A stretch of 37,427 nt of DNA, taken from an uncultured Intestinimonas sp. GTDB lineage: Bacteria; Bacillota; Clostridia; Oscillospirales; Oscillospiraceae. The DNA lies in the NCBI RefSeq assembly GCF_944387245.1, contig NZ_CALXEE010000011.1, positions 1-37,427 of the forward strand. Reading direction: 5' to 3'. Below are positions 885 to 16,398 of this stretch, in pieces; within the stretch, counting starts at the first letter, position 1, and each line of letters opens with the position of its first letter. Under the pieces are notes generated by a model. It saw nothing but the letters and a program-made list of their open reading frames with translations, made no database searches and had not been told where the DNA came from. Made by a program: the position numbers and the translations under genes.

Positions 885-1454
885 TTAGAGCTCCTCCAGC
901 AGACGCCGGACCGTCTGGGCGCTCTCCCGGCTCTCCGCCGCCAGGTCCAGCCACAGATTGGCCAGATCGCCGTCCTCCGCCCGTGCGGCAGCGGACCGGC
1001 ATCCCTCCTCACTGCGCCGCTCGGCCAGATACCGCTCCCGGAGCCCCCCCATCACCGTGCTCTCCCGGCGCTCCCCTCCTGGGTTCTGGGGCAGATACCA
1101 CACCCCGTCCAGCAGGAAGCAGGCCACCGCCAGCCGCTTGCTCCTCCGCCGGGCAGAGGCGGCCAGGCCCCGGAGCTGCCGCCCCGCCGGCCGGTTCCCC
1201 ATCCGCCGGGCCAGGGCCTCGTAGGCCGCCGCCCCCGCCAGAGCCTCCCCCAGCGCCGCCCGCAGCTCCCCACACCGGCGCTCCATCCGCTCACCCGCGT
1301 CCGGCGCCGCCAGCGCCCGCTCCGGCGCCTGTGCCGGCAGCACCTCGATGGGGCTCTCCCCTCCGCCGCTCTCGGTCACCCGCTGCCACACCTGCCGAAA
1401 GAGCTCCCGCTCCTCCTGCGCCGCACCGCCCTGGGGCTTCTGCATCTCTTCCAT
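885..1454 (-). CDS. Hypothetical helical protein, possibly ferritin-like fold
   Basis: This 189-residue protein is almost entirely alpha-helical and very rich in Ala, Glu and Arg. Four long amphipathic helices can be traced (about residues 12-30, 55-90, 98-116 and 135-189). The size and helix layout recall rubrerythrin/ferritin-like four-helix bundles, but the ExxH metal-ligand pairs of those enzymes are not evident, so that is only a fold guess. AGGAGG (1463-1468) lies 8 bases before the ATG, fixing the start. It precedes the membrane protein at 126-779 on the same strand and is divergent from the Fe-S operon. No function can be assigned. Confidence 0.7.
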   Translation of the reverse strand: MEEMQKPQGGAAQEERELFRQVWQRVTESGGGESPIEVLPAQAPERALAAPDAGERMERRCGELRAALGEALAGAAAYEALARRMGNRPAGRQLRGLAASARRRSKRLAVACFLLDGVWYLPQNPGGERRESTVMGGLRERYLAERRSEEGCRSAAARAEDGDLANLWLDLAAESRESAQTVRRLLEEL

Positions 1455-1546
1455 GGATCACGCCTCCTAAATTCCCGTCTTTCGGTCCATACTATGCCCG
1501 TGGCCCTACGGCGTTTCCTCGAAGTTTAGGTCAGTGAAAGAAATAC

Positions 1547-1575
1547 TTGTAAATCAATCGGAATTATGGTAAAAT
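1547..1575 (+). promoter_or_regulatory. Sigma-A promoter of the Fe-S operon
   Basis: TTGTAA (1547-1552), a 17-base spacer and TAAAAT (1570-1575), with an extended TGG just before the -10. It lies in the gap between the divergent minus-strand gene and sufC, and predicts a leader of about 65 bases containing a short GC-rich hairpin around 1600-1622. Confidence 0.75.
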
Positions 1576-1648
1576 ACTGCCGTATCGGCGGCAAGTGCCC
1601 CAAAACCGCCGCCGGCGGTTTACAGAGAAACACAAAGGAGTCCTTCAC

Positions 1649-2380
1649 ATGCTGGAGATCAGGCATTTATCTTATCAGGTGTCCGACGAGTCCGGCGAGG
1701 AGCTGGGCATCCTCAACGATGTCTCCCTCACCATCGGCGAGCACAAGTTCGTGGTCATCACCGGCCCCAACGGCGGCGGCAAGACCACCCTGGCCAAGGC
1801 CATCATGGGCCTGGTCACCCCCACCGGCGGGCAGATCCTGTGGAACGGTGAGGACATCACTTCCCTCAATATCACCCAGCGGGCCCAGAAGGGCATCAGC
1901 TACAGCTTTCAGCAGCCCCCCCGCTTCAAGGGCCTGAGGGTCCGGGACCTGCTGGAGCTCGCCTCCGGCCGGGAGGGCCTCACCCACGACGAGGAGTGCC
2001 AGTACCTCACCCGGGTGGGCCTGTGCGCCGCCGACTATATCGACCGCGAGGTGGACACCTCCCTCTCCGGCGGCGAGGTCAAGCGCATCGAGATCGCCAC
2101 CATCCTGGCCCGCAACTCCGGCCTTATGATCTTTGACGAGCCCGAGGCCGGCATCGACCTGTGGTCCTTCGCCCGGCTCACCGACACCTTCCGCCAGCTC
2201 CACGACGAGCAGAAGGCCACCCTGATCGTCATCTCCCACCAGGAGCGCATCATCGACCTGGCCGACGAGATCGTCATGGTGGACCACGGCGTCATCACCC
2301 AGCACGGCGCCAAGGATGAGATCTTCCCCAAGATCCTGGCCAACACCGTGTCGGGCTGCAGCTATATGCACGGGGCCTGA
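1649..2380 (+). CDS. sufC: Fe-S cluster assembly ATPase SufC (SmsC type)
   Basis: Soluble ABC ATPase that powers Fe-S cluster assembly on a SufB/D scaffold; it has no membrane partner. In the 243 residues, Walker A GPNGGGKTT is at 39-47, the Q-loop around 88-89, the signature LSGGE at 139-143, Walker B with the SufC-typical DEPEAGID at 163-170, and the H-loop His at 197. The start is the ATG 8 bases after AAAGGAG (1634-1640); an upstream in-frame extension is discarded because it covers the promoter leader. It is followed by a single SufB/D gene. No sufS, sufU or sufD is adjacent, which is the arrangement described as the SUF-like minimal system (SMS) of anaerobes and archaea. Confidence 0.93.
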   Translation: MLEIRHLSYQVSDESGEELGILNDVSLTIGEHKFVVITGPNGGGKTTLAKAIMGLVTPTGGQILWNGEDITSLNITQRAQKGISYSFQQPPRFKGLRVRDLLELASGREGLTHDEECQYLTRVGLCAADYIDREVDTSLSGGEVKRIEIATILARNSGLMIFDEPEAGIDLWSFARLTDTFRQLHDEQKATLIVISHQERIIDLADEIVMVDHGVITQHGAKDEIFPKILANTVSGCSYMHGA

Positions 2381-2452
2381 AGGTTCGCCCCGTTTTCACA
2401 GACGGCCGCTCCACACCACATCCCCGCGGCCGAGAAAGGAAGCATTTGAGCC

Positions 2453-3370
2453 ATGGACAAACTGGAAGCCAAGCTCCTCAAAGAGATCGCCGATCTGGAC
2501 GGTCTCCCGGTAGGGGCCTACAATATCCGCAAGAACGGACAGTCTGACGGCCGCGTCAGCACCGCTCACATCGTCATCGACACCAAAACCGACAAGTCCG
2601 GCATCGACATCCACATCGCCCCCGGCACCAAGAAGGAGTCGGTCCACATTCCCGTGGTCCTCACCGAGACCGGCCTTACCGAGACGGTCTACAACGACTT
2701 CTTCATCGGCGAGGACTGCGACGTGGACATCATCGCCGGCTGCGGCATCCACAACTCCGGCTGCGACACCACCCAGCACGACGGCATCCACACCTTCTAC
2801 GTGGGCAAGAACTCCAAGGTCCGCTACTATGAGAAGCACTACGGCGAAGGTGAGGGCACCGGCGAGCGTATCTTCAACCCCCAGACCATCGTCTACCTGG
2901 AGGAGGGCGCCTCCATCAACATGGAGACCACCCAGATCCGGGGCGTGGACTCCACCAAGCGCTACACCAAGATTGTAGTGGGCGCCGGCGGCGAGGCCGT
3001 CATCACCGAAAAGCTCCTCACCCACGGCAAGCAGACCGCTGAGTCCGAGATGGACATCGTCCTGGCCGGCGAGGATGCCACCGGCCGGGTCATCTCCCGC
3101 TCCGTGGCCCAGGACCAGTCCCAGCAGGTCTTCTACCCCCGCATGACCGGCGAGGCCAAGTGCTTCGGCCACGTCCAGTGTGACTCCATCATCATGGGTC
3201 AGGCGAAGATCAAGTCCATCCCCGCCATCGCCGCTGAGCACCCCGACGCCCAGCTTATCCACGAGGCCGCCATCGGGCGCATCGCCGGCGATCAGATCCT
3301 GAAGCTCATGACCCTGGGTCTCACCGAGGAAGAAGCAGAGGAGCGGATTCTCAATGGATTCCTGCAGTAA
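2453..3370 (+). CDS. sufB: SufB/SufD-family Fe-S scaffold (SmsB type)
   Basis: Scaffold protein expected to pair with SufC and build nascent Fe-S clusters. At 305 residues it is much shorter than SufB of the full SUF system (about 470-495) and keeps mainly the beta-helix core and the C-terminal helical domain. Residues matching functional ones of E. coli SufB are visible: Cys243 in VQCDSI (equivalent to Cys405) and the His270-Glu271 pair in LIHEAAIGRI (equivalent to His433-Glu434). A further Cys cluster at 89, 97 and 104 is specific to this short form. The ATG is preceded by GAAAGGAAGC. The 72-base gap from sufC implies one transcript. The last 17 bases overlap the next gene. Confidence 0.9.
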   Translation: MDKLEAKLLKEIADLDGLPVGAYNIRKNGQSDGRVSTAHIVIDTKTDKSGIDIHIAPGTKKESVHIPVVLTETGLTETVYNDFFIGEDCDVDIIAGCGIHNSGCDTTQHDGIHTFYVGKNSKVRYYEKHYGEGEGTGERIFNPQTIVYLEEGASINMETTQIRGVDSTKRYTKIVVGAGGEAVITEKLLTHGKQTAESEMDIVLAGEDATGRVISRSVAQDQSQQVFYPRMTGEAKCFGHVQCDSIIMGQAKIKSIPAIAAEHPDAQLIHEAAIGRIAGDQILKLMTLGLTEEEAEERILNGFLQ

Positions 3371-6415: not shown

Positions 6416-7609
6416 ATGTCCACCTATGACTTTACCACCCTTCGCTCCCGGCTCCATATGGGGGCTTCCAAATGGGGCCCCATGGAGAAGGCCGGCGTCA
6501 CCGATCCCGACGTGATTCCCTTCTCCGTGGCCGATATGGACCTGCTGGTGGCCCCTGAGATCGTCTCCGCCCTCCAGGAGGCCGCCGCCTTCGGCGTCTA
6601 CGGCTACACCGGCATGGACGAAGCCTTCCGCGCCGCCCTCATCGGCTGGATGGAGCGCCGCCACGGCTGGACCGTAGACCCCGGCTGGTTGGTGAGCAAC
6701 TTTGGCGTGGTCCACGCCGCCGGTCAGGCCGTCCAGGCCTTCACCAAACCCGGCGAGGCCATCGTCACCCAGACCCCCGCCTATCCCCCCTTCAAACGCA
6801 TCGCCGAGGCCACCGGCCGTCTCTTCTATGCAGATCCCCTCCGCCGCACCGACCACGGCTACGAGCTGGACCTGGACCACCTGGAGGACCTGTGTCGCCG
6901 CCCCGAGACCAAGCTCCTGCTCCTCTGCTCCCCCCACAACCCCACCGGCCGGGTGTGGACCCGTGAGGAGCTGGCGGCCATCGCCGACATTTGCCGCCGC
7001 CACGACGTGCTCATCTTCTCCGACGAGATCCACTGCGACTTCATCGCCCCCGGCCACACCCACACCGTCCTGGCCACCCTGGACGAGGAGACCGCCCACC
7101 GCTGCATCATGGGCACCTCCGCCAGCAAGACCTTCAACCTGGCCGGGCTGGCCACCTCCACCACCATCATCCCCGACCAGGAGCTGCGCCGGCAGTTCCG
7201 CGCCAAGACCGACGGCTACACCGGCGGCTTCAATGGCTACTTCGGCCTCACCGCCACCCGGGTGGCCTACGAGCAGGGCGAGCCCTGGCTGAGCGCCCTC
7301 ATGGAGCACCTGAAGGGCAACTTTGAGCTGTGCAAGACTTTCCTGGCCGACCGCTTCCCCTCGGTGTGGACGGCCCCCTGGGAGGGCACCTACCTGCTGT
7401 GGGCCGACTTCTCCTCTCTGGGTCTGGACCCCGAGGCCCAGATGCGCTTCATGCGGGACGAGGCCGGGCTGTGGCTGGACGAGGGCACCATGTTCGGGCC
7501 CGAGGGGACCGGCTTTGAGCGCTTCGTCCTGGCCTGCCCCCGCCACCACCTGGAAAAGGCCCTGGAGCGCCTGGACGACGCCGCCCGGCGGCGAGGGCTC
7601 CCCCGTTGA
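6416..7609 (+). CDS. PatB/MalY-type PLP-dependent cysteine-S-conjugate beta-lyase
   Basis: A 397-residue fold-type I PLP enzyme of the MalY/PatB group, which cleaves the C-S bond of cystathionine and related cysteine conjugates. Seen in the sequence: the N-terminal signature RLHMGASKWGP, PFSVADMDL, the Tyr-rich YGYTG, SPHNPTGRVW, the PLP-phenol Asp in FSDEIHCDF, the PLP lysine Lys238 in GTSASKTFNLAGL, and an Arg in the C-terminal domain for the substrate carboxylate. GGAGGT (6401-6406) precedes the start. The stop overlaps the start of the EamA permease (TTGA), so the two are translationally coupled; export of a thiol or amino acid by the permease is a plausible link but is inference. Confidence 0.9.
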   Translation: MSTYDFTTLRSRLHMGASKWGPMEKAGVTDPDVIPFSVADMDLLVAPEIVSALQEAAAFGVYGYTGMDEAFRAALIGWMERRHGWTVDPGWLVSNFGVVHAAGQAVQAFTKPGEAIVTQTPAYPPFKRIAEATGRLFYADPLRRTDHGYELDLDHLEDLCRRPETKLLLLCSPHNPTGRVWTREELAAIADICRRHDVLIFSDEIHCDFIAPGHTHTVLATLDEETAHRCIMGTSASKTFNLAGLATSTTIIPDQELRRQFRAKTDGYTGGFNGYFGLTATRVAYEQGEPWLSALMEHLKGNFELCKTFLADRFPSVWTAPWEGTYLLWADFSSLGLDPEAQMRFMRDEAGLWLDEGTMFGPEGTGFERFVLACPRHHLEKALERLDDAARRRGLPR

Positions 7610-8481
7610 GCCGCCTCACAGCGGACCCCCGGCTGGTCCTCTTCTTAGGCGTGCTGGGTGCCTCCTTCTCCTCCATCTTCGTCCGCTGGTCGGTGGCTCC
7701 CTCCCTGGTGACGGCCACCGGTCGCTTGGGTTGGACCGTCCTCCTGCTGCTGCCGGCTGTACTCCGGTCCCACCGGGCCGAGCTCCTGTCCTCCACAAAG
7801 CGGGACCTTCTGATGTGCGCCCTCAGCGGCGCCTGTCTGGCCCTCCACTTCTCCACCTGGTTCGAGTCCCTCAAGTGGACCTCCATCGCCTCCTCCACCG
7901 TGCTGGTATCCACCGAGGTCATCTTCTCCGCCCTGGGCTTTACCCTCTTCCTCCACGGCCGCATCCCCCGACTGGGGGTGGCCGCCATCGCTGTGGCCTT
8001 TGCCGGCAGCGTGGTGCTGGCTCTCTCCGACGCCGGAGGGTCCGGCGCCCTGGCGGGAGACCTGCTGGCGGTGCTGGCCGCTGTGGCTGTGGCCGCCTAT
8101 ACCCTCATCGGCCAGGTCCAGCGGGCCCGGCAGTCCACCACCGTCTACACCTTTCTCACCTACGCCTCCTGCCTCATCGTCCTGCTGGTGCTGGACGGTG
8201 CCACCGGCACCCCGGTGCTGGGCTGGGGCCTCCGTGAGGTGGGGGTGGGCCTGCTGCTGGCCGTTTTCTGCACCCTGCTGGGCCACTCCCTCTTCTCCTG
8301 GAGCCTGAAGTGGCTCTCCCCCGCCTACGTCTCTGCCGCCAAGCTGTGCGAACCCATTTTCGCCTCCGTACTAGGCCTGATTCTTTTCGGCGAAGGCATC
8401 GGACTCCTTCAGGCCGTTGGTGCCGTGGCCGTCCTGGCCGGCGTCCTCCTCTATACCAAGGCCGAGGGCCAGCATACATGA
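7606..8481 (+). CDS. EamA/DMT-family permease
   Basis: A 291-residue protein with ten predicted hydrophobic segments in two repeats of five (EamA fold), for example the pairs around residues 6-24, 32-50, 66-85, 92-110 and 117-135, repeated in the second half, which ends with a long hydrophobic segment and a charged tail. DMT-family members export amino acids, metabolites or nucleotide precursors. The start is a TTG that overlaps the stop of the upstream lyase gene (TTGA), with a purine-rich GGCGAGGG ahead of it; the next in-frame Met lies far into the protein. Substrate unknown. Confidence 0.85.
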   Translation: MSRLTADPRLVLFLGVLGASFSSIFVRWSVAPSLVTATGRLGWTVLLLLPAVLRSHRAELLSSTKRDLLMCALSGACLALHFSTWFESLKWTSIASSTVLVSTEVIFSALGFTLFLHGRIPRLGVAAIAVAFAGSVVLALSDAGGSGALAGDLLAVLAAVAVAAYTLIGQVQRARQSTTVYTFLTYASCLIVLLVLDGATGTPVLGWGLREVGVGLLLAVFCTLLGHSLFSWSLKWLSPAYVSAAKLCEPIFASVLGLILFGEGIGLLQAVGAVAVLAGVLLYTKAEGQHT

Positions 8482-8527
8482 AAAACATGCCCCGTGTTCG
8501 GAAGCTGCCGGACATGGGACATGTTTT
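8482..8527 (+). terminator. Long hairpin terminator after the EamA gene
   Basis: AAAACATG pairs with CATGTTTT, CCC with GGG, and GTGTTCGG with CCGGACAT, around a 6-base loop with one small bulge. The stem begins directly after the stop codon and runs into CTAAAAAGTTTTT. Confidence 0.75.
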
Positions 8528-8583
8528 CTAAAAAGTTTTTACTTTCCCTTTTGTATTTTTTACTTTACCGTGCCAAATCACTC

Positions 8584-8612
8584 TTGCATTTTTTTGCTGA
8601 CGGGTGTAAAAT
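8584..8612 (+). promoter_or_regulatory. Sigma-A promoter of the aromatic operon leader
   Basis: TTGCAT (8584-8589), a 17-base spacer and TAAAAT (8607-8612). It is the best match in the 8528-8644 AT-rich stretch and predicts initiation near 8619, about 25 bases before the leader-peptide ATG. Confidence 0.7.
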
Positions 8613-8638
8613 ACCTCCAACCATTGCAAGTGAGGTAT
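8611..8638 (+). promoter_or_regulatory. Inverted repeat over the -10/+1 region and leader RBS
   Basis: ATACCTC (8611-8617) and GAGGTAT (8632-8638) are exact reverse complements 14 bases apart. The left arm overlaps the -10 and the right arm contains the GAGGT Shine-Dalgarno of the leader ORF. As DNA it could be a repressor operator. As RNA it could only mask the SD if transcription starts further upstream than the promoter I favour. Confidence 0.4.
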
Positions 8639-8644
8639 CTCTTC

Positions 8645-8749
8645 ATGGACCATCGCCGCCTCACAACTGAATCCCGCTCCTTTACCTATTTTGGCTGGGC
8701 TCGATTTACGGGCACCGGCTTTTTTGGCATGGGTAAAATAGCGGGATAA
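8645..8749 (+). CDS. Aromatic-rich leader peptide (attenuator, 34 aa)
   Basis: A 34-codon ORF with GAGGT 8 bases upstream of its ATG. Seven of 34 residues are aromatic, with Phe, Tyr and Trp all present and five packed into SFTYFGWARF (residues 12-21), plus Phe26-Phe27. All five Phe codons are TTT and the Tyr codon is TAT, whereas the neighbouring enzymes overwhelmingly use TTC and TAC. It ends 48 bases before an intrinsic terminator and heads the operon that makes the precursors of exactly these three amino acids. This is the architecture of ribosome-mediated attenuation (trpL/pheL type). No alignment was possible, so conservation is untested. Confidence 0.65.
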   Translation: MDHRRLTTESRSFTYFGWARFTGTGFFGMGKIAG

Positions 8750-8806
8750 AGTGAATGGGCCGGCCCTTTTGACAGGGTCGTTGTATCGTTGAACCGTGCG
8801 CTCATT
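8710..8806 (+). promoter_or_regulatory. Predicted anti-antiterminator and antiterminator pairings
   Basis: Segment 1 (8710-8719, GGGC and CGGC with AC bulged) can pair with segment 2 (8759-8766, GCCGGCCC), giving 8 bp. Segment 2' (8754-8760, AATGGGC) can pair with segment 3 (8800-8806, GCTCATT), giving 7 bp with one G-U. Segment 3 is also the left arm of the terminator at 8798-8834. The 1:2 and 2':3 pairings share 8759-8760, and 2':3 and the terminator share segment 3, so they are mutually exclusive. A ribosome on the leader stop codon would cover segment 2'. Confidence 0.5.
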
Positions 8807-8834
8807 GATTTTATCGTCAATGGGCGCCTTTTTT
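8798..8834 (+). terminator. Attenuator terminator upstream of aroF
   Basis: GCGCTCATTGA (8798-8808), an 8-base loop and TCAATGGGCGC (8817-8827), 11 bp with one G-U, followed by six T residues (8829-8834). It lies between the leader ORF and aroF, inside the transcription unit rather than at the end of a gene. Confidence 0.85.
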
Positions 8835-8871
8835 ATTGCCGCGCCCTTGGCGGAAGAAGGAGAAGATCACT

Positions 8872-9891
8872 ATGGTAATCATTATGAAACCCGGCACGAA
8901 AAATGAGGATATTGAAGCCCTGGCCGACACCTTCCGTGCCCAGGGTCTGGACGTGGGCATCACCCACGGCATCGGCTGCACCATCCTGGGTCTGGTGGGC
9001 GACACCACTGAGCTGGACATGGACAAGATCTCCATGGAGGACAACGTGGAGCGGGTCATGCGGGTCCAGGAGCCCTACAAGAAGGCCAACCGGAAGTTCC
9101 ACCCCGAGGACACCGTGGTCACCGTGGGCAAGGCCCGGATCGGCGGCGGCAACTTCTCCGTCATCGCCGGGCCCTGCTCGGTGGAGAGTGAGGAGCAGAT
9201 CTGCGCCGTGGCCCAGGATGTGAAGCTCTCCGGCGCGGCCATGCTCCGCGGCGGCGCCTTCAAGCCCCGCACCTCCCCCTACTCCTTCCAGGGCATGGGC
9301 ACCCCCGGCCTGGACCTGCTGGTGGAGGCCCGCGCCCAGACCGGTCTGCCCATCGTCACCGAGATCATGGACCCCCGGATGGCCGAGCTCTTCGAGGAGC
9401 GGGTGGACGTGGTCCAGGTGGGCGCCCGGAACATGCAGAACTTCGAGCTTCTGAAGGAGGTTGGCAAGATGAGCAAGCCCATCCTCCTCAAGCGTGGCCT
9501 CTCCAACACCTACGAGGAGTGGATCATGTCGGCCGAGTACATCATGGCCGCCGGCAATGAGAACGTGATCCTCTGCGAGCGGGGCATCCGCACCTTTGAG
9601 ACCTACACCCGCAACACCCTGGACGTATCCGCCATCCCCGCCATCAAGCAGATGAGCCACCTGCCCGTCATCGTGGACCCCTCCCACGCCGCCGGCATGT
9701 ACTGGATGGTGGAGCCCCTGGCCATGGCGGCCATCGCCGCCGGCGCCGACGGCCTCATCATTGAGGTCCACAACGATCCCCCCCACGCCAAGTGCGACGG
9801 CCAGCAGTCCCTCACCCCCAAGAAGTTCGACGAGCTCATGAAGAAGGTGAAGGTCCTGGTCCCCATGATGGGCAAGACCATGATGCCCTGA
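8872..9891 (+). CDS. aroF: 3-deoxy-7-phosphoheptulonate synthase (type I-beta DAHPS)
   Basis: Condenses phosphoenolpyruvate and erythrose 4-phosphate to DAHP, the first step to chorismate. The 339 residues match the Thermotoga-type enzyme: an N-terminal ferredoxin-like (ACT-like) regulatory domain of about 70 residues, then the barrel with GPCSVES (100-106), KPRTSPYSFQG, the LLKRGLS region and DPSHAAGM. In this subfamily the N-terminal domain confers feedback inhibition by aromatic amino acids, so control here is probably both allosteric and at the leader. The start is the ATG 9 bases after AAGGAG (8857-8862); an in-frame TTG at 8836 abuts the terminator and is rejected. Confidence 0.95.
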   Translation: MVIIMKPGTKNEDIEALADTFRAQGLDVGITHGIGCTILGLVGDTTELDMDKISMEDNVERVMRVQEPYKKANRKFHPEDTVVTVGKARIGGGNFSVIAGPCSVESEEQICAVAQDVKLSGAAMLRGGAFKPRTSPYSFQGMGTPGLDLLVEARAQTGLPIVTEIMDPRMAELFEERVDVVQVGARNMQNFELLKEVGKMSKPILLKRGLSNTYEEWIMSAEYIMAAGNENVILCERGIRTFETYTRNTLDVSAIPAIKQMSHLPVIVDPSHAAGMYWMVEPLAMAAIAAGADGLIIEVHNDPPHAKCDGQQSLTPKKFDELMKKVKVLVPMMGKTMMP

Positions 9892-9910: not shown

Positions 9911-11005
9911 ATGAAGACCCTCTCCGTGACCCTGCCCGGCCGGAGCTACGATATCCTCATCGGCTCCGGCCTTCTCTCCCAGGCAGCTGAGCACCTGCAC
10001 CGGGTGCTCCCCCGGGCCAAAAAGCTCTTTGTGGTCACCGACTCCAACGTGGCCCCCATCTATCTCTCCGCCCTGATCCCCGGGCTGGAGCGCTCCGGCT
10101 TTGAGACCGCCTGCCGGGAGATTCCCGCCGGGGAGGGCTCCAAATCCGCCGCCATGCTCAGCGCCCTCTGGGAGGACATGATGGACTTCGGCCTCACCCG
10201 CACCGACGCCGTGGTGGCTCTGGGCGGCGGCGTGGTGGGGGACCTGGCCGGTTTCGCCGCCGCCACCATCCTCCGGGGGGTGGATTTTGTCCAGATCCCC
10301 ACCACCCTCCTCTCCCAGGTGGACTCTTCCGTGGGCGGCAAGGTGGCCATCGACCTCGCCCACGGCAAGAACCTGGCCGGGGCCTTCTGGCAGCCCAAGA
10401 TTGTCCTCATGGACCCCGACACCCTGGACACCCTCGATGATCTCACCTTCGCCGACGGTATGGCCGAGGTCATCAAGTACGGCTGCATCCTGGACAAATC
10501 CTTCTTCGACTTTCTCTCTCTCCGGCCCAGCCGGGGTGAGATCATGGAACAGATCGAACACGTTTTGTATACCTGCTGTGATTTAAAACGAATGGTAGTG
10601 GAGGAGGACGAGCGGGACACCGGCCGTCGGATGCTCCTCAACTTCGGCCACACCGTGGGCCACGCCTTTGAGAAGATGGGCAACTATGAGACCTGGACCC
10701 ACGGCCAGGCGGTGGCGGCCGGCATGTGCGTGGCCGCCCGGCTGGGTCTGGCCCTGGGCACCGGCGGAACGGAGGCCGACCTCCAGGCCCTCACCAAGTT
10801 GCTCCAGGCCTTCGACCTGCCCGTCCACATCCCCTGCTCCGACACCGACTGGCCCGTCGTGGCAGAGACCATCGGTCTGGACAAGAAGGGCGCCGGGGAC
10901 AGCATCAGCCTCATTCTCCTGGAGGAGATGGGCAAGGCCAAGGCCGTGAAGCTGAAAAAGACAGAGGTGCTCTCCCAGCTCTCTGCCCTCTACGGGAGGG
11001 TCTGA
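9911..11005 (+). CDS. aroB: 3-dehydroquinate synthase
   Basis: Second shikimate-pathway enzyme, converting DAHP to 3-dehydroquinate with NAD+ and a divalent metal. The 364-residue length is normal. The NAD-binding stretch GGGVVGDLAGFAAA (about 104-117), PTTLLSQVDSSVGGK, the metal-ligand Glu in DGMAEVIKYG and the metal-ligand histidines in LNFGHTVGHAFE and WTHGQAVAAGM are all present. It starts 19 bases after aroF behind GGAAGGAAG and ends 2 bases before aroA, so it belongs to the same operon. Confidence 0.96.
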   Translation: MKTLSVTLPGRSYDILIGSGLLSQAAEHLHRVLPRAKKLFVVTDSNVAPIYLSALIPGLERSGFETACREIPAGEGSKSAAMLSALWEDMMDFGLTRTDAVVALGGGVVGDLAGFAAATILRGVDFVQIPTTLLSQVDSSVGGKVAIDLAHGKNLAGAFWQPKIVLMDPDTLDTLDDLTFADGMAEVIKYGCILDKSFFDFLSLRPSRGEIMEQIEHVLYTCCDLKRMVVEEDERDTGRRMLLNFGHTVGHAFEKMGNYETWTHGQAVAAGMCVAARLGLALGTGGTEADLQALTKLLQAFDLPVHIPCSDTDWPVVAETIGLDKKGAGDSISLILLEEMGKAKAVKLKKTEVLSQLSALYGRV

Positions 11006-11007
11006 CT

Positions 11008-12246
11008 ATGGACATCACCATCACACCTGGCCTGCTCGGCGGGTCCATCACGCCGCCCCCTTCCAAAAGTCAAGCCCACCGGGCCCTCATTGCCGCCGCC
11101 CTGGCGGAGGGCGTGAGCATGCTCAAAAACGTAGCTCTCTCCCAGGACATCCAGGCCACCATCCGCTGTCTGGAGACCCTGGGCGCCTCCTTCCGATGGG
11201 AGGGCGACACCCTGGCGGTCACCGGTCTGGCCGGAAAACCGGCACCCCAGGGGGAACTCCCCCTGCTGGACTGCGGCGAGTCCGGCTCCACCCTGCGTTT
11301 CCTCATTCCCATCTCCCTGGCCGTCCTGGGCGGCGGCCGCTTCACCGGCCACGGCCGGCTCATGGAGCGGCCCCAGGGCCCCTACTTCGACCTTTTTCGG
11401 GAGAAGGGCATTTTCTGCGAACAGAAGGACAGCGTACTCACCGTAAGCGGCAGGCTGGAGTCGGGAATATTCTCCCTGCCCGGCAACGTGTCCAGCCAGT
11501 TCATCACCGGCCCCCTCTACACCCTCCCTCTGCTGTCCGGGGACAGCGAGATCCTCCTCATCACCCCCCTGGAGAGCCGGGGCTATGTGGACATGACCCT
11601 GGACGTGCTGGAGAAATTCGGCGTCCGGGTGGAGAACCGGGACTACGCCTCCCTCCGGGTCCCCGGAAATCAGGCCTTCCAGGCCCGGGACCTGACGGTG
11701 GAGGCCGACTGGTCCAACGCCGCCTTCTGGTATGCCGCCGCCCTGCTGGAGAGCGACGTGGACATCCAAGGCCTGGATACCCACTCCACCCAGGGGGACG
11801 CCGCCATCGCCGGCCACTACTGGACCCTGGCCCGGCCCGCCGACGCCCAGATCGACGTGTCCGGCTGTCCCGACCTGGTGCCCCCCCTGGCCGCCATGGC
11901 CGCCCTCCGGGGGGAGGGGCTCACCACCCGGCTGGTCAACGCCGCCCGGCTGCGGATGAAGGAGAGCGACCGGCTCTCCACGGTGACCGAGGTGCTCAAC
12001 GCACTGGGGGCGGACGTGGAGGAGCACGACGACTATCTGGTGATCCGCGGGAAGGACACCCTCCCCGGCGGCGTTACCGTCTCCGGCCACAACGACCACC
12101 GCATCGCCATGATGGCCGCCATTGCCGCCACCAACTGTGACGCCCCCGTCACCATCACCGGGGCGGAGTGCGTCAAAAAGTCCTACCCCAATTTCTGGGA
12201 GGACTACGAGGCCCTGGGCGGCGTCATCGCCCGGGCCCAGGCTTAA
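11008..12246 (+). CDS. aroA: 3-phosphoshikimate 1-carboxyvinyltransferase (EPSP synthase)
   Basis: Transfers enolpyruvyl from PEP to shikimate 3-phosphate. In 412 residues, the PPSKSQAHRAL motif (N-terminal Lys/Ser pair for both substrates), the LDCGESGSTLRFL loop, GNVSSQFITG, the catalytic Asp region of the C-terminal half, RMKESDRL and GHNDHRIAMMAA are intact, so the enzyme should be active. The true start is the ATG at 11008, two bases after the aroB stop, with GGGAGGG ahead inside aroB; the much longer open frame upstream is aroB read in another frame. Confidence 0.96.
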   Translation: MDITITPGLLGGSITPPPSKSQAHRALIAAALAEGVSMLKNVALSQDIQATIRCLETLGASFRWEGDTLAVTGLAGKPAPQGELPLLDCGESGSTLRFLIPISLAVLGGGRFTGHGRLMERPQGPYFDLFREKGIFCEQKDSVLTVSGRLESGIFSLPGNVSSQFITGPLYTLPLLSGDSEILLITPLESRGYVDMTLDVLEKFGVRVENRDYASLRVPGNQAFQARDLTVEADWSNAAFWYAAALLESDVDIQGLDTHSTQGDAAIAGHYWTLARPADAQIDVSGCPDLVPPLAAMAALRGEGLTTRLVNAARLRMKESDRLSTVTEVLNALGADVEEHDDYLVIRGKDTLPGGVTVSGHNDHRIAMMAAIAATNCDAPVTITGAECVKKSYPNFWEDYEALGGVIARAQA

Positions 12247-12258
12247 GGAGGCGTCCCC

Positions 12259-13236
12259 ATGAAATACATCATCTTCGGCGAGTCCCACGGCCCCGCCATC
12301 GGGGTGACCCTGGAGGGGGTTCCCGCCGGTATAGAGCTGGACATGGACTTCATCCGCAGCGAGATGGCCCGCCGGGCCCCCGGCCAGAACGCCATGACCA
12401 CCGCCCGCAAGGAGAAGGACGAGCCCGAGATCCTCTCCGGCGTCTTTGAGGGCAAAACCACCGGCACCCCCCTGTGTGCCGTCATCTTCAACACCGACAC
12501 CCGCTCCAAGGACTACGCCAAGCTCAAAAACCTGCCCCGGCCCGGCCACGCCGACTACGCCGGCTTCGTCCGCTACCACGGCTGCAACGACTACCGGGGC
12601 GGCGGCCACTTCTCCGGCCGCCTCACCGCCCCCCTGGTCTTTGCCGGGGCCATCGCCAAGCTCGTCCTGAAGGAGAAGGGCGTCACCGTCGCCGCCCGCA
12701 TCACCAACGTGGCCGGCATCGCCGACCCCACCCCCGAGGAGATGGAGGCGGCCATCCTGGCCGCCAAGGCCGATCTGGACTCGGTGGGCGGGCGCATCGC
12801 CTGCGCCGTCACCGGCCTCCCCGCCGGGCTGGGCGCCCCCGACTTCGGCTGCAACGTGGAGGGCATTTTCTCCCAGTACCTCTTCGCCGTCCCCGCCGTG
12901 AAGGCGGTGGGCTTCGGCCTGGGGACCGCCTTCGCCGACCTCCGGGGCAGCCAGGCCAACGACCCCTTCTACATGGACGGCGACACCGTCAAGACCCGCA
13001 CCAACCACACCGGCGGCGTCAACGGCGGCATTACCAACGGCATGCCGGTGGAGTTTGAGGTCACCATCCGGCCCACCCCCTCCATCGCCCGGGAGCAGGA
13101 CACGGTGGACCTCTCCAGCCACACCGACGCCAAGCTGGCCATCACCGGCCGCCACGACCCCTGCATCGTGCCCCGGGCGGTGCCCGTCATTGAGTCCGCC
13201 GCCGCCCTGGCCGCCTGCCAGCTGCTGGGCATCTGA
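12259..13236 (+). CDS. aroC: Chorismate synthase
   Basis: Converts EPSP to chorismate using reduced FMN. At 325 residues it is shorter than the common 350-390 because surface loops in the middle are trimmed, but the core motifs are complete: GESHGPAIG (His10 region), the Arg-Lys-rich TTARKEKDEPEILSG, RPGHADYAG, YRGGGHFSGRLTA and the C-terminal RHDPCIVPRAVPV. AAGGAGG begins within the aroA stop codon and is followed 8 bases later by the ATG, so translation is tightly coupled to aroA. Confidence 0.95.
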   Translation: MKYIIFGESHGPAIGVTLEGVPAGIELDMDFIRSEMARRAPGQNAMTTARKEKDEPEILSGVFEGKTTGTPLCAVIFNTDTRSKDYAKLKNLPRPGHADYAGFVRYHGCNDYRGGGHFSGRLTAPLVFAGAIAKLVLKEKGVTVAARITNVAGIADPTPEEMEAAILAAKADLDSVGGRIACAVTGLPAGLGAPDFGCNVEGIFSQYLFAVPAVKAVGFGLGTAFADLRGSQANDPFYMDGDTVKTRTNHTGGVNGGITNGMPVEFEVTIRPTPSIAREQDTVDLSSHTDAKLAITGRHDPCIVPRAVPVIESAAALAACQLLGI

Positions 13237-13260: not shown

Positions 13261-14415
13261 ATGAGTCAACTGGATGAGCTTCGGGGGCAGATCGACGACA
13301 TCGACGCCCAGCTCACCGCCCTCTTCCTCCGGCGCATGGAGGTGACGGAGCAGGTGGGCCGCTGGAAGCAGGCCAACGGCATCCCTGTGCTGGACACCGC
13401 CCGGGAGCACGAGGTGCTGGCCAAAAAAGCCGCCCTCACCGACGACCCTGCCCGTAAGGATGACGTCACCGCCCTCTATGAGGCCATCATGGGCATCTCC
13501 CGCCGGCAGCAGCGCAAACTCCTCACCGAGGCGGGCAACGAGGACTATGTCCGCATCCAGTCCGCCCTCCGGGCCGTCCGGGCCCCCCTCACCGACCCCA
13601 GGGTCCTCTACCAGGGGGAACCGGGGGCCTATTCCGACGAGGCCGCCGGCCGCTTCTTCGGGGAGACCGTCGCCCGGTCCCACGTGGCCACCTGGGAGGA
13701 GGTCTTTCTGGCCCTGAAGGAGGGCCGGGCCGACTACGGCGTACTGCCCATCGAAAACAGCTCCACCGGCTCCATCAGTCAGGTCTACGACCTGCTGGCC
13801 CAGTACGGCGCCTACATCGTGGGGGAGCAGACCGTGAAGGTGGACCACTGTCTGGCCGCCCCCGCCGGGGCCACCCTGGACACCATCACCGCCGTCTACT
13901 CCCACGAGCAGGGACTCCTCCAGTGCGCCGACTTCCTCAAGGGCCGGAACTGGACCCGGGTACCTCGGCTCAACACCGCCGAGAGCGCCCAGTTCGTGGC
14001 CAAAAGTGGGACGCCCGACCGGGCCGCCATCTGCTCCCCCCACGCCGCCCGGCTCTACGGCTTGGAGATCCTGGCCCAGCACATCAACGCCAACGACCAC
14101 AACTACACCCGCTTCGTCATCGTCTCCCCGGTACCGGAGCACCGGCCGGGCAGCGACAAAGTGAGCGCCCTCTTCACCCTGCCCCACCGCACCGGCTCCC
14201 TCCACCAGCTCATGACTATCTTCGCCGTCAACGGCCTCAACCTCATGAAGCTGGAGTCCCGCCCCATTGTGGGCCGGAGCTGGGAGTACCTCTTCTTCGC
14301 CGACTTCATCGCCGACCTCGCCGCCCCCGGCATGGACGGGGTGCTCCTGGAGCTCACCCAGACCGCTGAGGGCTTCCGGGTGCTGGGGAACTACCCCGCC
14401 GCCAAGGAGGGCTGA
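13261..14415 (+). CDS. pheA: Bifunctional chorismate mutase / prephenate dehydratase (P-protein)
   Basis: Fuses an AroQ-type chorismate mutase (about residues 1-88, including the Arg and Lys of QVGRWKQANG), a prephenate dehydratase (about 110-290, with EPGAYSDEAA, PIENSSTGSI and the NYTRFVIV segment carrying the catalytic Thr-Arg-Phe) and a C-terminal ACT domain (about 300-384) with the GSLHQL and KLESRP Phe-binding motifs. It channels chorismate to phenylpyruvate and should be inhibited by Phe through the ACT domain. It sits within the aro operon, 24 bases after aroC, ahead of aroK. No tyrA or trp gene is in the window. Confidence 0.95.
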   Translation: MSQLDELRGQIDDIDAQLTALFLRRMEVTEQVGRWKQANGIPVLDTAREHEVLAKKAALTDDPARKDDVTALYEAIMGISRRQQRKLLTEAGNEDYVRIQSALRAVRAPLTDPRVLYQGEPGAYSDEAAGRFFGETVARSHVATWEEVFLALKEGRADYGVLPIENSSTGSISQVYDLLAQYGAYIVGEQTVKVDHCLAAPAGATLDTITAVYSHEQGLLQCADFLKGRNWTRVPRLNTAESAQFVAKSGTPDRAAICSPHAARLYGLEILAQHINANDHNYTRFVIVSPVPEHRPGSDKVSALFTLPHRTGSLHQLMTIFAVNGLNLMKLESRPIVGRSWEYLFFADFIADLAAPGMDGVLLELTQTAEGFRVLGNYPAAKEG

Positions 14416-14418
14416 GCC

Positions 14419-14919
14419 GTGGATGAGCGCAACATCGTCCTCATCGGCATGATGGCCTCGGGCAAGACCACGGTGGGCGGCCTCCTGGCCGCCGCCCTGG
14501 GCCGTCCCTTGGTGGACACCGACGCCCTCATTGAGGAAAAAGAAGGCCGGACCATCCCCGCCATTTTCGCAAGCGACGGGGAGGGCTACTTCCGGGACCG
14601 GGAGCGGGAGGCGGCGGAGGACCTCGCCCGGAAAACCGGTCTGGTCATCGCTTGCGGCGGCGGCCTCCCCCTGCGGCCCGACGCCATGGCCCCCCTGAAG
14701 CATACGGGGTTGGTCTTCTGGCTTTGCCGGGACCCTGGGGAAACCTACGACTCCGGCGTGCTGGGGGACCGGCCCCTGGCCCAGGACGGCCGGGCGGCCT
14801 TCCTGGACCGCTTCGCCCAGCGGGAGCCGGTCTACCGCGCATGGGCCGACCACATCATTACCGACCTGACCTCCCCGGAGGCCGGTCTCAACGCCATTTT
14901 GGAGGTGCTCAGAGCATGA
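14419..14919 (+). CDS. aroK: Shikimate kinase
   Basis: ATP-dependent phosphorylation of shikimate. In 166 residues, the P-loop GMMASGKTTVG (about 9-19), the DTD motif (shikimate-binding Asp), the Arg of YFRDRE, ACGGGLPL and the LID-region DRPLAQ are visible. The start is GTG, overlapping nothing but only 3 bases after the pheA stop, with AAGGAGG at 14404-14410 inside pheA. Its stop overlaps the aroQ start as ATGA, so pheA, aroK and aroQ are translationally coupled. Confidence 0.94.
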   Translation: MDERNIVLIGMMASGKTTVGGLLAAALGRPLVDTDALIEEKEGRTIPAIFASDGEGYFRDREREAAEDLARKTGLVIACGGGLPLRPDAMAPLKHTGLVFWLCRDPGETYDSGVLGDRPLAQDGRAAFLDRFAQREPVYRAWADHIITDLTSPEAGLNAILEVLRA

Positions 14920-15365
14920 AATTTCTGGTCATCAACGGGCCCAATCTCAATCTGCTGGGCCAGCGGGAGCCGGGCATCTACGGCTCGGAGAACTACGAGA
15001 GCCTGTGCGCCCATTTGAAAGAGTTTGCCGCCGCCCACGACGCCTCGGTGGACTGCTTCCAGTCCAACCACGAGGGGGCCATTGTGGACGCCATCCAGGG
15101 CGCCAACGGGGTATACGACGCCATCGTCATGAATCCCGGGGCCTACACCCACTACTCCGTGGCCATTCTGGACGCTCTCAAGGCCGTCTCCGTGCCCTGC
15201 ATCGAGGTCCACATCTCCAACATCCACCAGCGGGAGGAGTTCCGCCACAAGAGCGTCACAGCCCCCGCCTGCGTGGGCCAGATCTGCGGCCTGGGCCTCT
15301 ACGGCTACGAGGCCGCCCTTGGTTACTTTCTCTCGAGAGCGAAAGTAACCAAAGAGAGCTTTTAG
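14916..15365 (+). CDS. aroQ: 3-dehydroquinate dehydratase, type II
   Basis: Dehydrates 3-dehydroquinate to 3-dehydroshikimate. The type II fold is clear in 149 residues: NGPNLNLLGQREPGIYG with the catalytic Tyr and Arg loop, the QSNHEGAIVD segment, NPGAYTHYS and the catalytic-His strand EVHISN. The start overlaps the aroK stop (ATGA). The C-terminus is odd: the natural end of this family comes near YGYEAAL, and the last residues here (GYFLSRAKVTKESF) are encoded by a palindromic repeat (15321-15350), so the tail looks like an acquired extension. The tail is outside the active site and should be tolerated. Confidence 0.93.
   Translation: MKFLVINGPNLNLLGQREPGIYGSENYESLCAHLKEFAAAHDASVDCFQSNHEGAIVDAIQGANGVYDAIVMNPGAYTHYSVAILDALKAVSVPCIEVHISNIHQREEFRHKSVTAPACVGQICGLGLYGYEAALGYFLSRAKVTKESF
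15321..15350. repeat. Palindromic repeat element read through by the aroQ 3' end
   Basis: GGTTACTTTC and GAAAGTAACC are exact reverse complements around TCTCGAGAGC, itself centred on a palindromic CTCTCGAGAG, and AAAGAGAGC follows. It looks like a small dispersed REP/MITE-like element rather than a terminator: there is no T tract and it is inside coding sequence. Only one copy is present in this window, so its repetitive nature is inferred from its form. Confidence 0.5.
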
Positions 15366-15540: not shown

Positions 15541-16398
15541 ATGCAGGTCGAGCTGAACAACACCACCAAAAAGCTGTGCGTCATCGGGGACCCGGTACTC
15601 CACTCCAAGTCCCCCCTGATCCAGAACACCATGATCCAGACCCTGGGGCTGGATTACATCTACCTCTGCCAGCCCGTCAAGGCCGGGGAGGCCGCCCGGT
15701 GGCTGGAGTGTGCCAAATTCGCTGGCTACGCCGGCTTCAACGCCACCATGCCCCACAAGGAGGACCTCCTCTCCCTCATGGACGAGCTGGACGAGGACGC
15801 CAAGCTCTATGGCTCGGTGAATACGGTCTGTATCAAAGAGGACAAAATATACGGATTCAACACGGATGGGCGGGGCTTTTTCCAGGCCCTGCTGGACGCC
15901 GGGTTCAATCCGCGGGGCCGCCGGGTGGTGCTGCTGGGGGCGGGCGGCGCCGCCAAGGCGGTGGCCCTGAAGCTGGCCCAGCAGGGGGCGGCCTCGGTGA
16001 CCATCTGCAACCGGACCGTAGAGAAGGCCCAGGCCCTCTGTGACAAGGCGCCAAAAATCCTCTCCCCCGCTGGCTTTGACATCGACACCCTCCTGGCCCA
16101 GGCCGCCAACGCCGACCTGCTGGTCAACTGCACCTCCCTGGGCATGACGGGGGCCAAGGGTCAGTTCGAGGACCTCTCCTTCCTGGAGGCCCTGCCCGCC
16201 GGCGTACCGGTGTGCGACCTCATCTACGCCCCCCTGGAGACCGCCCTTTTGGCCCGGACCCGGGAGCTGGGACACCCCACCCTCAACGGCCTGAGCATGC
16301 TCCTCTACCAGGCCATCTTTGCCCTGGAGCACTTCACCGGCGCCGCCATCGACGCCCCCGCCATGGCCCGGCGCCTGGCCCCCCTGCTGGGAGCCTAG
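15541..16398 (+). CDS. aroE: Shikimate dehydrogenase (NADP+)
   Basis: Reduces 3-dehydroshikimate to shikimate. The 285 residues show the substrate-binding HSKSPLIQNT (Ser22, Ser24), the catalytic Lys73 in NATMPHKED, Asp109 in FNTDGRGF, the glycine-rich GAGGAAKA (133-140) and the NRTxEKA cofactor loop typical of NADP+ specificity. The SD is modest (AAAGGAT, 11 bases ahead). It completes the DAHP-to-chorismate set when added to aroF, B, Q, K, A and C. It is separated from aroQ by 175 bases, unlike the tightly packed genes before it. Confidence 0.94.
   Translation: MQVELNNTTKKLCVIGDPVLHSKSPLIQNTMIQTLGLDYIYLCQPVKAGEAARWLECAKFAGYAGFNATMPHKEDLLSLMDELDEDAKLYGSVNTVCIKEDKIYGFNTDGRGFFQALLDAGFNPRGRRVVLLGAGGAAKAVALKLAQQGAASVTICNRTVEKAQALCDKAPKILSPAGFDIDTLLAQAANADLLVNCTSLGMTGAKGQFEDLSFLEALPAGVPVCDLIYAPLETALLARTRELGHPTLNGLSMLLYQAIFALEHFTGAAIDAPAMARRLAPLLGA

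Follow-up and report, generated by a model that had tools for sequence, protein, structure and literature searches.

How does a member of the Clostridia govern the first step of the common aromatic pathway? The customary division assigns leader-peptide attenuation to the proteobacteria and T-box or TRAP control to the Firmicutes. In the window considered here (the whole stretch of 37,427 nucleotides that was analysed, from an uncultured Intestinimonas sp.), a short ORF rich in aromatic codons lies before an operon that begins with aroF, and we consider it highly probable that this aro-pheA operon is under ribosome-mediated transcription attenuation. The genome is a draft (G000: 2.31 Mb in 136 contigs, 82.1% complete); its AroF is 95% identical to the AroF of a Candidatus Intestinimonas (L032). 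The genes are as follows.

7606-8481, EamA-type transporter gene, the upstream neighbour of the aro promoter
8872..9891, + strand, aroF, 3-deoxy-7-phosphoheptulonate synthase (DAHP synthase), ATG at 8872 (NF006421, 507 bits; TIGR01361, 404 bits)
9911..11005, + strand, aroB, 3-dehydroquinate synthase (TIGR01357)
11002..12246, + strand, aroA, 3-phosphoshikimate 1-carboxyvinyltransferase (TIGR01356; start estimated inside ORF 10726-12246)
12259..13236, + strand, aroC, chorismate synthase (TIGR00033)
13261..14415, + strand, pheA, chorismate mutase / prephenate dehydratase (PF00800 and PF01817 above cut-off, NCBIfam below cut-offs)
14419..14919, + strand, aroK, shikimate kinase (PF01202 above cut-off, NCBIfam below cut-offs)
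14913..15365, + strand, aroQ, type II 3-dehydroquinate dehydratase (TIGR01088; start estimated)
15541..16398, + strand, aroE, shikimate dehydrogenase (TIGR00507)

The operon provides all seven shikimate steps, with chorismate mutase and prephenate dehydratase in addition. The stretch that separates the transporter gene from the aro promoter contains an inverted repeat (8482-8527) with 23-nt arms, 83% complementary and without a gap, where a terminator scan places terminator-like sites on both strands.

Anatomy of the leader and its alternative folds

The region upstream of aroF contains these elements.

8584..8612, + strand, promoter-like sequence: -35 TTGCAT (8584-8589), 17 nt, -10 TAAAAT (8607-8612)
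8632..8636, + strand, Shine-Dalgarno sequence GAGGT of the leader ORF
8645..8749, + strand, leader peptide ORF MDHRRLTTESRSFTYFGWARFTGTGFFGMGKIAG, 34 codons, 7 of them aromatic; stop codon 8747-8749
8666..8689, + strand, 5' arm (strand 1) of the outer leader stem, pairing with 8729-8752; inverted repeat, 79% complementary, in the minimum-energy fold
8694..8719, + strand, hairpin inside the ORF, GCTGGGCTCG-ATTTA-CGGGC(A)CCGGC; 10 pairs, loop AUUUA, one bulge; folds
8720..8731, + strand, U6 (8720-8725), then GGCAUG
8729..8752, + strand, 3' arm (strand 2) of the outer leader stem; inverted repeat, shares 8745-8752 with the antiterminator
8745..8760, + strand, antiterminator 5' arm GATAAAGTGAATGGGC, straddling the leader stop codon; 15 of 16 positions pair with 8800-8815
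8798..8834, + strand, intrinsic terminator; stem 8798-8827 of 12 pairs with G-U, tail CTTTTTT

A rereading of the sequence confirms what the earlier note had claimed of the first three: a promoter, a Shine-Dalgarno sequence and a 34-codon ORF with seven aromatic codons (Phe five times, Tyr and Trp once each). The -35 hexamer has only 3 of 6 consensus matches, and the promoter is absent from the list of a generic scan; of 55 related leaders, however, 53 have a TTGCA-N(15-19)-TATAAT-like pattern ahead of the ATG (shuffles: mean 1.1, maximum 4; reverse complements 4/55). Relatives also have a Shine-Dalgarno-like sequence before the leader ATG. A short, presumably translated ORF with its own ribosome-binding site, start and stop lies between promoter and first gene, it is enriched in codons for the end product of the operon, and an intrinsic terminator follows before aroF. 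The earlier note describes the region accurately; for the terminator it gave 11 bp and T6, where there are 12 pairs, G-U included, and then CTTTTTT. The antiterminator, the conservation and the hairpin inside the ORF were absent from that note. RNA 8618-8842 folds at z = -5.0.

Segment 8800-8815 does double duty, as part of the terminator stem and as the 3' arm of the antiterminator, and in the model the two folds are mutually exclusive. The ribosome was represented by taking RNA as free from 14 nt past the first base of the A-site codon. With the RNA ending at 8815 and a ribosome at each of the seven aromatic codons in turn, the probability of the antiterminator is 0.97-0.99; a ribosome modelled at the leader stop codon covers 8745-8760, and the antiterminator is impossible. 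With no ribosome it is still likely (0.78 at RNA end 8815, 0.84 at 8818), since its overlap with the outer stem is limited to 8745-8752; the leader stem, as modelled, competes with it only in part. Once the RNA is complete (to 8830), the terminator is favoured at equilibrium in all modelled states (0.71-0.99), and the switch must therefore be kinetic, read-through depending on kinetic trapping. Attenuators in general are held to be kinetic switches.

Stalling at the regulatory codons is thus predicted to free an antiterminator that excludes the terminator, a prediction that is weaker in the relatives: the duplex there has a mean z of -0.96 against shuffles and reaches p≤0.05 individually in 10 of 55 only. 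The terminator is more uniform. In a permissive search a hairpin with a T-rich tail follows 55/55 leaders; at one of these (L065) the search chose a poor hairpin (-4.3 kcal/mol), and the usual terminator is visible by eye. Many relatives have a stem like GCTCATTG...CAATGGGC, and the core common among them is GCTCATTGA...TCAATGGGC.

The proposed course of events is as follows: RNA polymerase would start near 8619, and a ribosome would load on the leader ORF; the hairpin at 8694-8719 and the U-rich stretch probably hold the polymerase for the ribosome's arrival; given ample charged Phe-, Tyr- and Trp-tRNA, translation would run on to the stop codon at 8747-8749, the ribosome there would cover 8745-8760, and the terminator at 8798-8827 would form. 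When aromatic tRNA is short, the ribosome would stall within codons 13-27 and leave 8745-8760 free; this segment would pair with 8800-8815, sequestering the 5' arm of the terminator, and the aro-pheA operon would be transcribed.

Conservation in close relatives is extensive. At AroF identity of at least 70%, 68 loci were found; merging of identical upstream regions and removal of L011 (7 nt upstream) left 60 distinct regions, with L064, cut by a contig end, counted among them. A leader score (an ORF behind an SD, with five or more of 12 residues aromatic) picks out 50 of the 60; of the reverse complements 2/60 pass, and of shuffled regions 2.0 on average and 4 at most. Six of the other ten have the leader by motif only (L012, L013, L014, L024, L053 and L067), for a total of 56/60; 55 leaders are recognized by motif, and L018 and L069 by score. 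The typical peptide, from 55 distinct related ORFs before aroF, is LTTASFxFxFGWARFxGxGFFGMEK. Do relatives keep the terminator without an aromatic-rich ORF? They do not, apart from L057, where the terminator is kept and the leader ORF is absent; in the upstream regions of L052 and L061 neither leader nor terminator was seen. Together with the competing antiterminator, this supports the proposal, made in the earlier note, of leader-peptide attenuation before the shikimate operon. As the relatives keep the same leader design, the cell probably senses shortage by ribosome stalling there.

A covariance model of 84 positions has one match each in 58 of 300 family genomes, spread over 27 of the 106 genera (threshold E≤0.01, with 13 of the 58 lying between E 4e-5 and 0.01), and the best 30 of the 58 are all upstream of aroF. 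Among 197 genomes of the order, 11 match: nine from the same family and two from outside it (E 0.0025 and 0.0053). One could suppose that nothing is regulated here, a constitutive terminator standing upstream beside a chance ORF, or a small protein working in trans. Such a reading has to accommodate a leader conserved as a unit with aroF, at one match per genome, with controls at 2/60; we regard it as extremely improbable.

Known leader classes were also considered. A T-box at the aroF locus is rejected: RF00230 is unmatched here, though it matches 13 places elsewhere in G000, 6 of them over cut-off. T-boxes were recorded at these loci.

L119, G000:C6:25383-25631, minus strand, T-box directly before trpE (RF00230)
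L117, T-box before a substrate-binding-protein gene resembling TrpX (TrpX model below cut-off)
L115, T-box upstream of tyrS, with another ORF between (RF00230)
L120, T-box upstream of pheS, with another ORF between (RF00230)

Those at L115 and L120 presumably share a transcript with tyrS and pheS. T-boxes read uncharged tRNA without translation. T-box leaders and the aro leader alike would place amino acid genes under the control of tRNA charging; the T-box needs no translation, whereas the design in the window is ORF-based. A T-box-like pattern occurs in nine regions (L084, L085, L201, L207, L216, L252, L254, L260 and L272), none of which scores for a leader; an Rfam scan of 20 loci found a T-box in one, L084, the only one of the nine that it included. 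The known Rfam leader families (Trp, Phe and others) are rejected as well, with no match at gathering score in the window; in 8480-8880 Rfam gives just two chance-level matches, to unrelated families (E 1.4 and 2.3). A TRAP leader is an array of (G/U)AG triplets at 2-3 nt spacing; 8618-8871 holds only three such triplets, 107 and 121 nt apart, and TRAP control is rejected.

The hairpin inside the reading frame

Counts out of 52 come from an alignment of leaders (52 rows, 51 distinct; L023, L072 and L025 left out), and codon counts out of 55 from a table in which L010, L023 and L072 are anchored at another Arg. Across the 52 aligned leaders CG.TTT in the loop region is invariant. Codon -2 (Trp18 here) faces codon +4 in the hairpin. 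It encodes Trp in 44 leaders; of the other eight, 4 have Tyr there, 3 Phe and 1 Cys, so that the residue is aromatic in 51 of 52 despite the two base changes between TGG and TAT or TTT. The facing codons are GCC, ACC, TTC, TCC or GCT for TGG (44 leaders), ATG (3) or TAC (1) for TAT, TAC for TTT (3) and AAC for TGC (1). Aromatic coding is a second constraint, given what is kept at codon -2.

The pairing itself covaries with codon choice. A count that allows two registers keeps 9.54 of 10 pairs, against 9.01 with partners shuffled (maximum 9.21 in 1000), with kinship ignored. The percentage paired, the number of cells changed on both sides and the covariation score were each reached by 0 of 500 shuffles; two other covariation measures were reached by 121 and 102 of 500. 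Shifting the pairing by one column raises the covariation score (0.177 vs 0.103) and lowers the share of cells paired (64.1% vs 75.5%); the score rises because the inner five pairs occur in two registers. The inner hairpin is also more stable than synonymous recodings of it (mean z -1.25; below -1 in 35/55); for the stem of the whole ORF the same comparison gave no overall stability signal (mean z -0.35; 10/55 below -1). Since the inner hairpin covaries with the codons and outdoes synonymous recodings, conservation of the peptide is at least partly conservation of RNA, and conservation purely at the peptide level is rejected as the sole cause. Pairs that must also spell aromatic codons make a clear case of overlap between RNA and coding constraint. 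Codon usage in the leaders is likewise distinctive: TTT:TTC is 219:54 for Phe, vs 121:357 in AroF, and TAT:TAC is 55:17 for Tyr, vs 108:239.

These findings bear on the idea that the nascent peptide GWARFxGxGFF itself stalls the ribosome, with or without a bound aromatic amino acid. Nascent TnaC is a known peptide of this kind. The strong conservation of the peptide, with RF present in 52/52 aligned leaders, is what such an arrest would predict, as is an Arg codon that is the rare CGA in 51 of 52, vs 22 of 845 Arg codons in AroF genes. Yet the conservation lies largely in paired nucleotides and shifts with the pairing, and the aromatic-rich leaders that precede aroF in other genera differ in sequence; arrest by the peptide seems to us improbable. 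The CGA, codon 20 of the leader (8702-8704), could be kept owing to the loop sequence, to slow decoding or to both.

Could the hairpin instead be a terminator? Its ten pairs (-14.5 kcal/mol) are followed directly by UUUUUU, and six U are found in 26 of the 52 aligned leaders; attenuation would then have two steps, with an early stop when the leader goes untranslated. In the remaining 26 the U run is broken (TATTTT in 15), and TG is kept at the position of 8730-8731 in 46/52. A pause therefore fits better than a terminator, and the early stop is an unlikely reading. U8730-G8731 starts 11 nt past the hairpin, a spacing that looks pause-like and that we take to resemble the his and trp pause sites; the element at 8694-8719 would then serve as a pause hairpin.

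Which aromatic amino acids are read

The mixture of Phe, Tyr and Trp was the basis on which the earlier note had the leader reading all three. All three residues do occur in 35 of 55 leaders before the first aroF copy (W in 47, Y in 43); summed sensing is another matter and is unproven. Phe dominates: these leaders average 4.96 F, 1.31 Y and 0.93 W, and 273 of their 396 aromatic residues are Phe. In the Corynebacterium glutamicum aroF operon, moreover, the AroR leader (Phe-Tyr-Phe) answers to limitation of Phe and not of Tyr, according to the passage of PMC11802643 that treats it, where the attenuator is credited to Neshat 2014. Sensing of three amino acids is for these two reasons plausible, short of proof: the leader very likely reads Phe, and plausibly Tyr and Trp.

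The AroR precedent and the Phe count also fit an attenuator that reads Phe alone, its Tyr and Trp codons being carried along by the RNA hairpin or by drift between Phe and Tyr; so do the presence of pheA in the operon and of a separate T-box at trpE. Passengers are harder to reconcile with codon -2, which stays aromatic by way of three different amino acids, and with codons -4 and +6, where F and Y interchange. Leaders linked to tyrA are Tyr-rich, so that Tyr codons track function there. We treat reading of Phe alone as a serious possibility, at somewhat under an even chance.

The tyrA-linked leaders come from a second aroF copy.

L125 (G000:C125), 1261-3313, minus strand, aroF2, second DAHP synthase, then tyrA; 68% identity to the first copy

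The leader of this aroF2 is MKRFQGHVYGYSYRCRYAGNGALSCPGSGPL, Tyr-rich and with its own terminator; the tyrA after it falls below the cut-offs of the NCBIfam models. In the 41 upstream regions L125-L165, the next gene is tyrA in 36 and aroB in 2; for leaders of the first copy it is aroB at each of the 53 loci, of 61, where it could be resolved. Tyr-rich leaders are also seen in relatives among L126-L143. By eye, the aroF2 leader at L133 (G009:C150) appears to stand apart from its gene by about 200 extra nt with inverted repeats; L028 looks similar.

Composition follows the operon: leaders are Phe-rich before aroF-aroB...pheA and Tyr-rich before aroF2-tyrA. A leader was found at 18 of 19 aroF2-tyrA loci, with means of 1.61 F, 5.06 Y and 0.22 W; the genomes of 18 of the 19 loci yielded the first copy too, and in G003 only the aroF2 copy was found. 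At aroF-tyrA loci of other genera (15 of 17 with a leader) the means are 4.67 F, 3.73 Y and 0.07 W. An automatic rule chose the leaders in these counts by aromatic content (4 of 12 residues sufficed), which biases them toward aromatic-rich frames. With W at 0.93 vs 0.22 vs 0.07, Trp codons are found mostly before the operon whose chorismate serves all three amino acids. E. coli has amino-acid-specific DAHP synthase isoenzymes; a pair of DAHP synthase genes whose leaders differ in composition offers a parallel to these and allows an evolutionary test of codon tuning.

The fullest reading, for which we see roughly equal grounds for belief and doubt, joins three elements: that the leader sums shortage of Phe, Tyr and Trp, that its pause hairpin coevolves with the codons, and that leaders of this general type controlled DAHP synthase ancestrally in Clostridia and were re-tuned as codons were exchanged. 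If so, one leader would set flux into the common pathway, with trpE left to a T-box of its own and further T-boxes lying upstream of tyrS and of pheS; the regulatory codons would be folded into a conserved pause hairpin in which pairing and aromatic coding evolve together; and re-tuning would account for Phe-rich leaders before pheA operons and Tyr-rich ones before tyrA. In many Clostridia the first gene of the shikimate pathway has a leader peptide, and the genome considered here uses T-boxes as well. One tRNA is what a T-box reads, and a leader ORF can read several; a mixed leader may therefore explain the choice made for the common pathway.

Known attenuators and the spread in Clostridia

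The trpL and pheL attenuators of the proteobacteria have one dominant amino acid each. They share with the window a leader ORF, a leader stem, antiterminator and terminator as alternatives, and a place before biosynthetic genes; the window differs in mixing Phe, Tyr and Trp, in belonging to the Clostridia and in standing before the common pathway. Both are named in PMC11802643. AroR, as that review describes it, likewise combines an aromatic leader peptide with an attenuated operon containing aroF; it differs in coming from the Actinobacteria, in having no Trp among the residues that the review names, and in responding to Phe without Tyr. In Acholeplasma, uORFC-13-1 is a candidate uORF before aroF from a survey of 26 genomes (PMC8632094), alike in coding Phe and in having a terminator before aroF. 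By its description there, with which the comparison was made, it has 24 representatives, in Acholeplasma and environmental sequences only, and a U run that encodes one Phe or more. A subsequent survey, covering 50 genomes, gives eight uORF candidates; 12 of 14 passages on them mention no aro leader. Other Firmicute cases also involve ribosome-mediated attenuation, for other amino acids and operons: His attenuators predicted in some Firmicutes (PMC9413887) and a Leu attenuator peptide in Staphylococcus aureus (PMC5794164). For synthetase genes of Firmicutes, the passage of an Actinobacteria survey that deals with them reports T-boxes and no classical attenuation. Searches of open-access literature turned up no earlier account of such aromatic leaders in the Clostridia, though an earlier prediction may exist. 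The mechanism is of a known kind; what sets this case apart is the mixed input, the hairpin that encodes codons, the versions tuned to their operons and the spread in Clostridia.

The earlier note had called such attenuation uncommon in Firmicutes. At aroF in Clostridia leaders seem not to be rare: in the class-level set, made up of the better matches listed, 31 of 67 aroF upstream regions score (reverse complements 2/67). Here 69 regions were taken, as the better matches of a longer list, and two dropped (L247, because its match begins after residue 1, and L262, with 142 nt only); the set holds one genome of the window's own family, and its scoring allowed TTG starts, as that of the other sets did not. 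Among more distant orthologues, 22 of 41 distinct upstream regions reach the leader score (reverse complements 2/41); within the family, 31 of 41 regions before aroF2 or a single aroF copy do so (3/41), as do 14 of 34 order-level and extra-copy regions (0/34). These sets and that of the close orthologues overlap slightly, some genomes being in two, and the counts are kept separate.

The aromatic-rich leaders of other genera can be simpler. That of L220 reads SFTYFFGKAY, and TTTACC...GGTAAG closes directly over its aromatic codons; by eye, the leader of the window looks like a stem of this kind with the GWARFxGxGFF hairpin inserted in its loop. Stretches resembling FFxWGYFxxAGY can also be seen by eye before aroF in L076, L081, L082, L098 and L107 (Clostridium, Negativicutes and Pelosinus contigs), and the terminators of L081, L098, L103 and L107 have an ACTCATT or GCTCATT arm like that of the window. 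These shared stretches and arms suggest an old common element.
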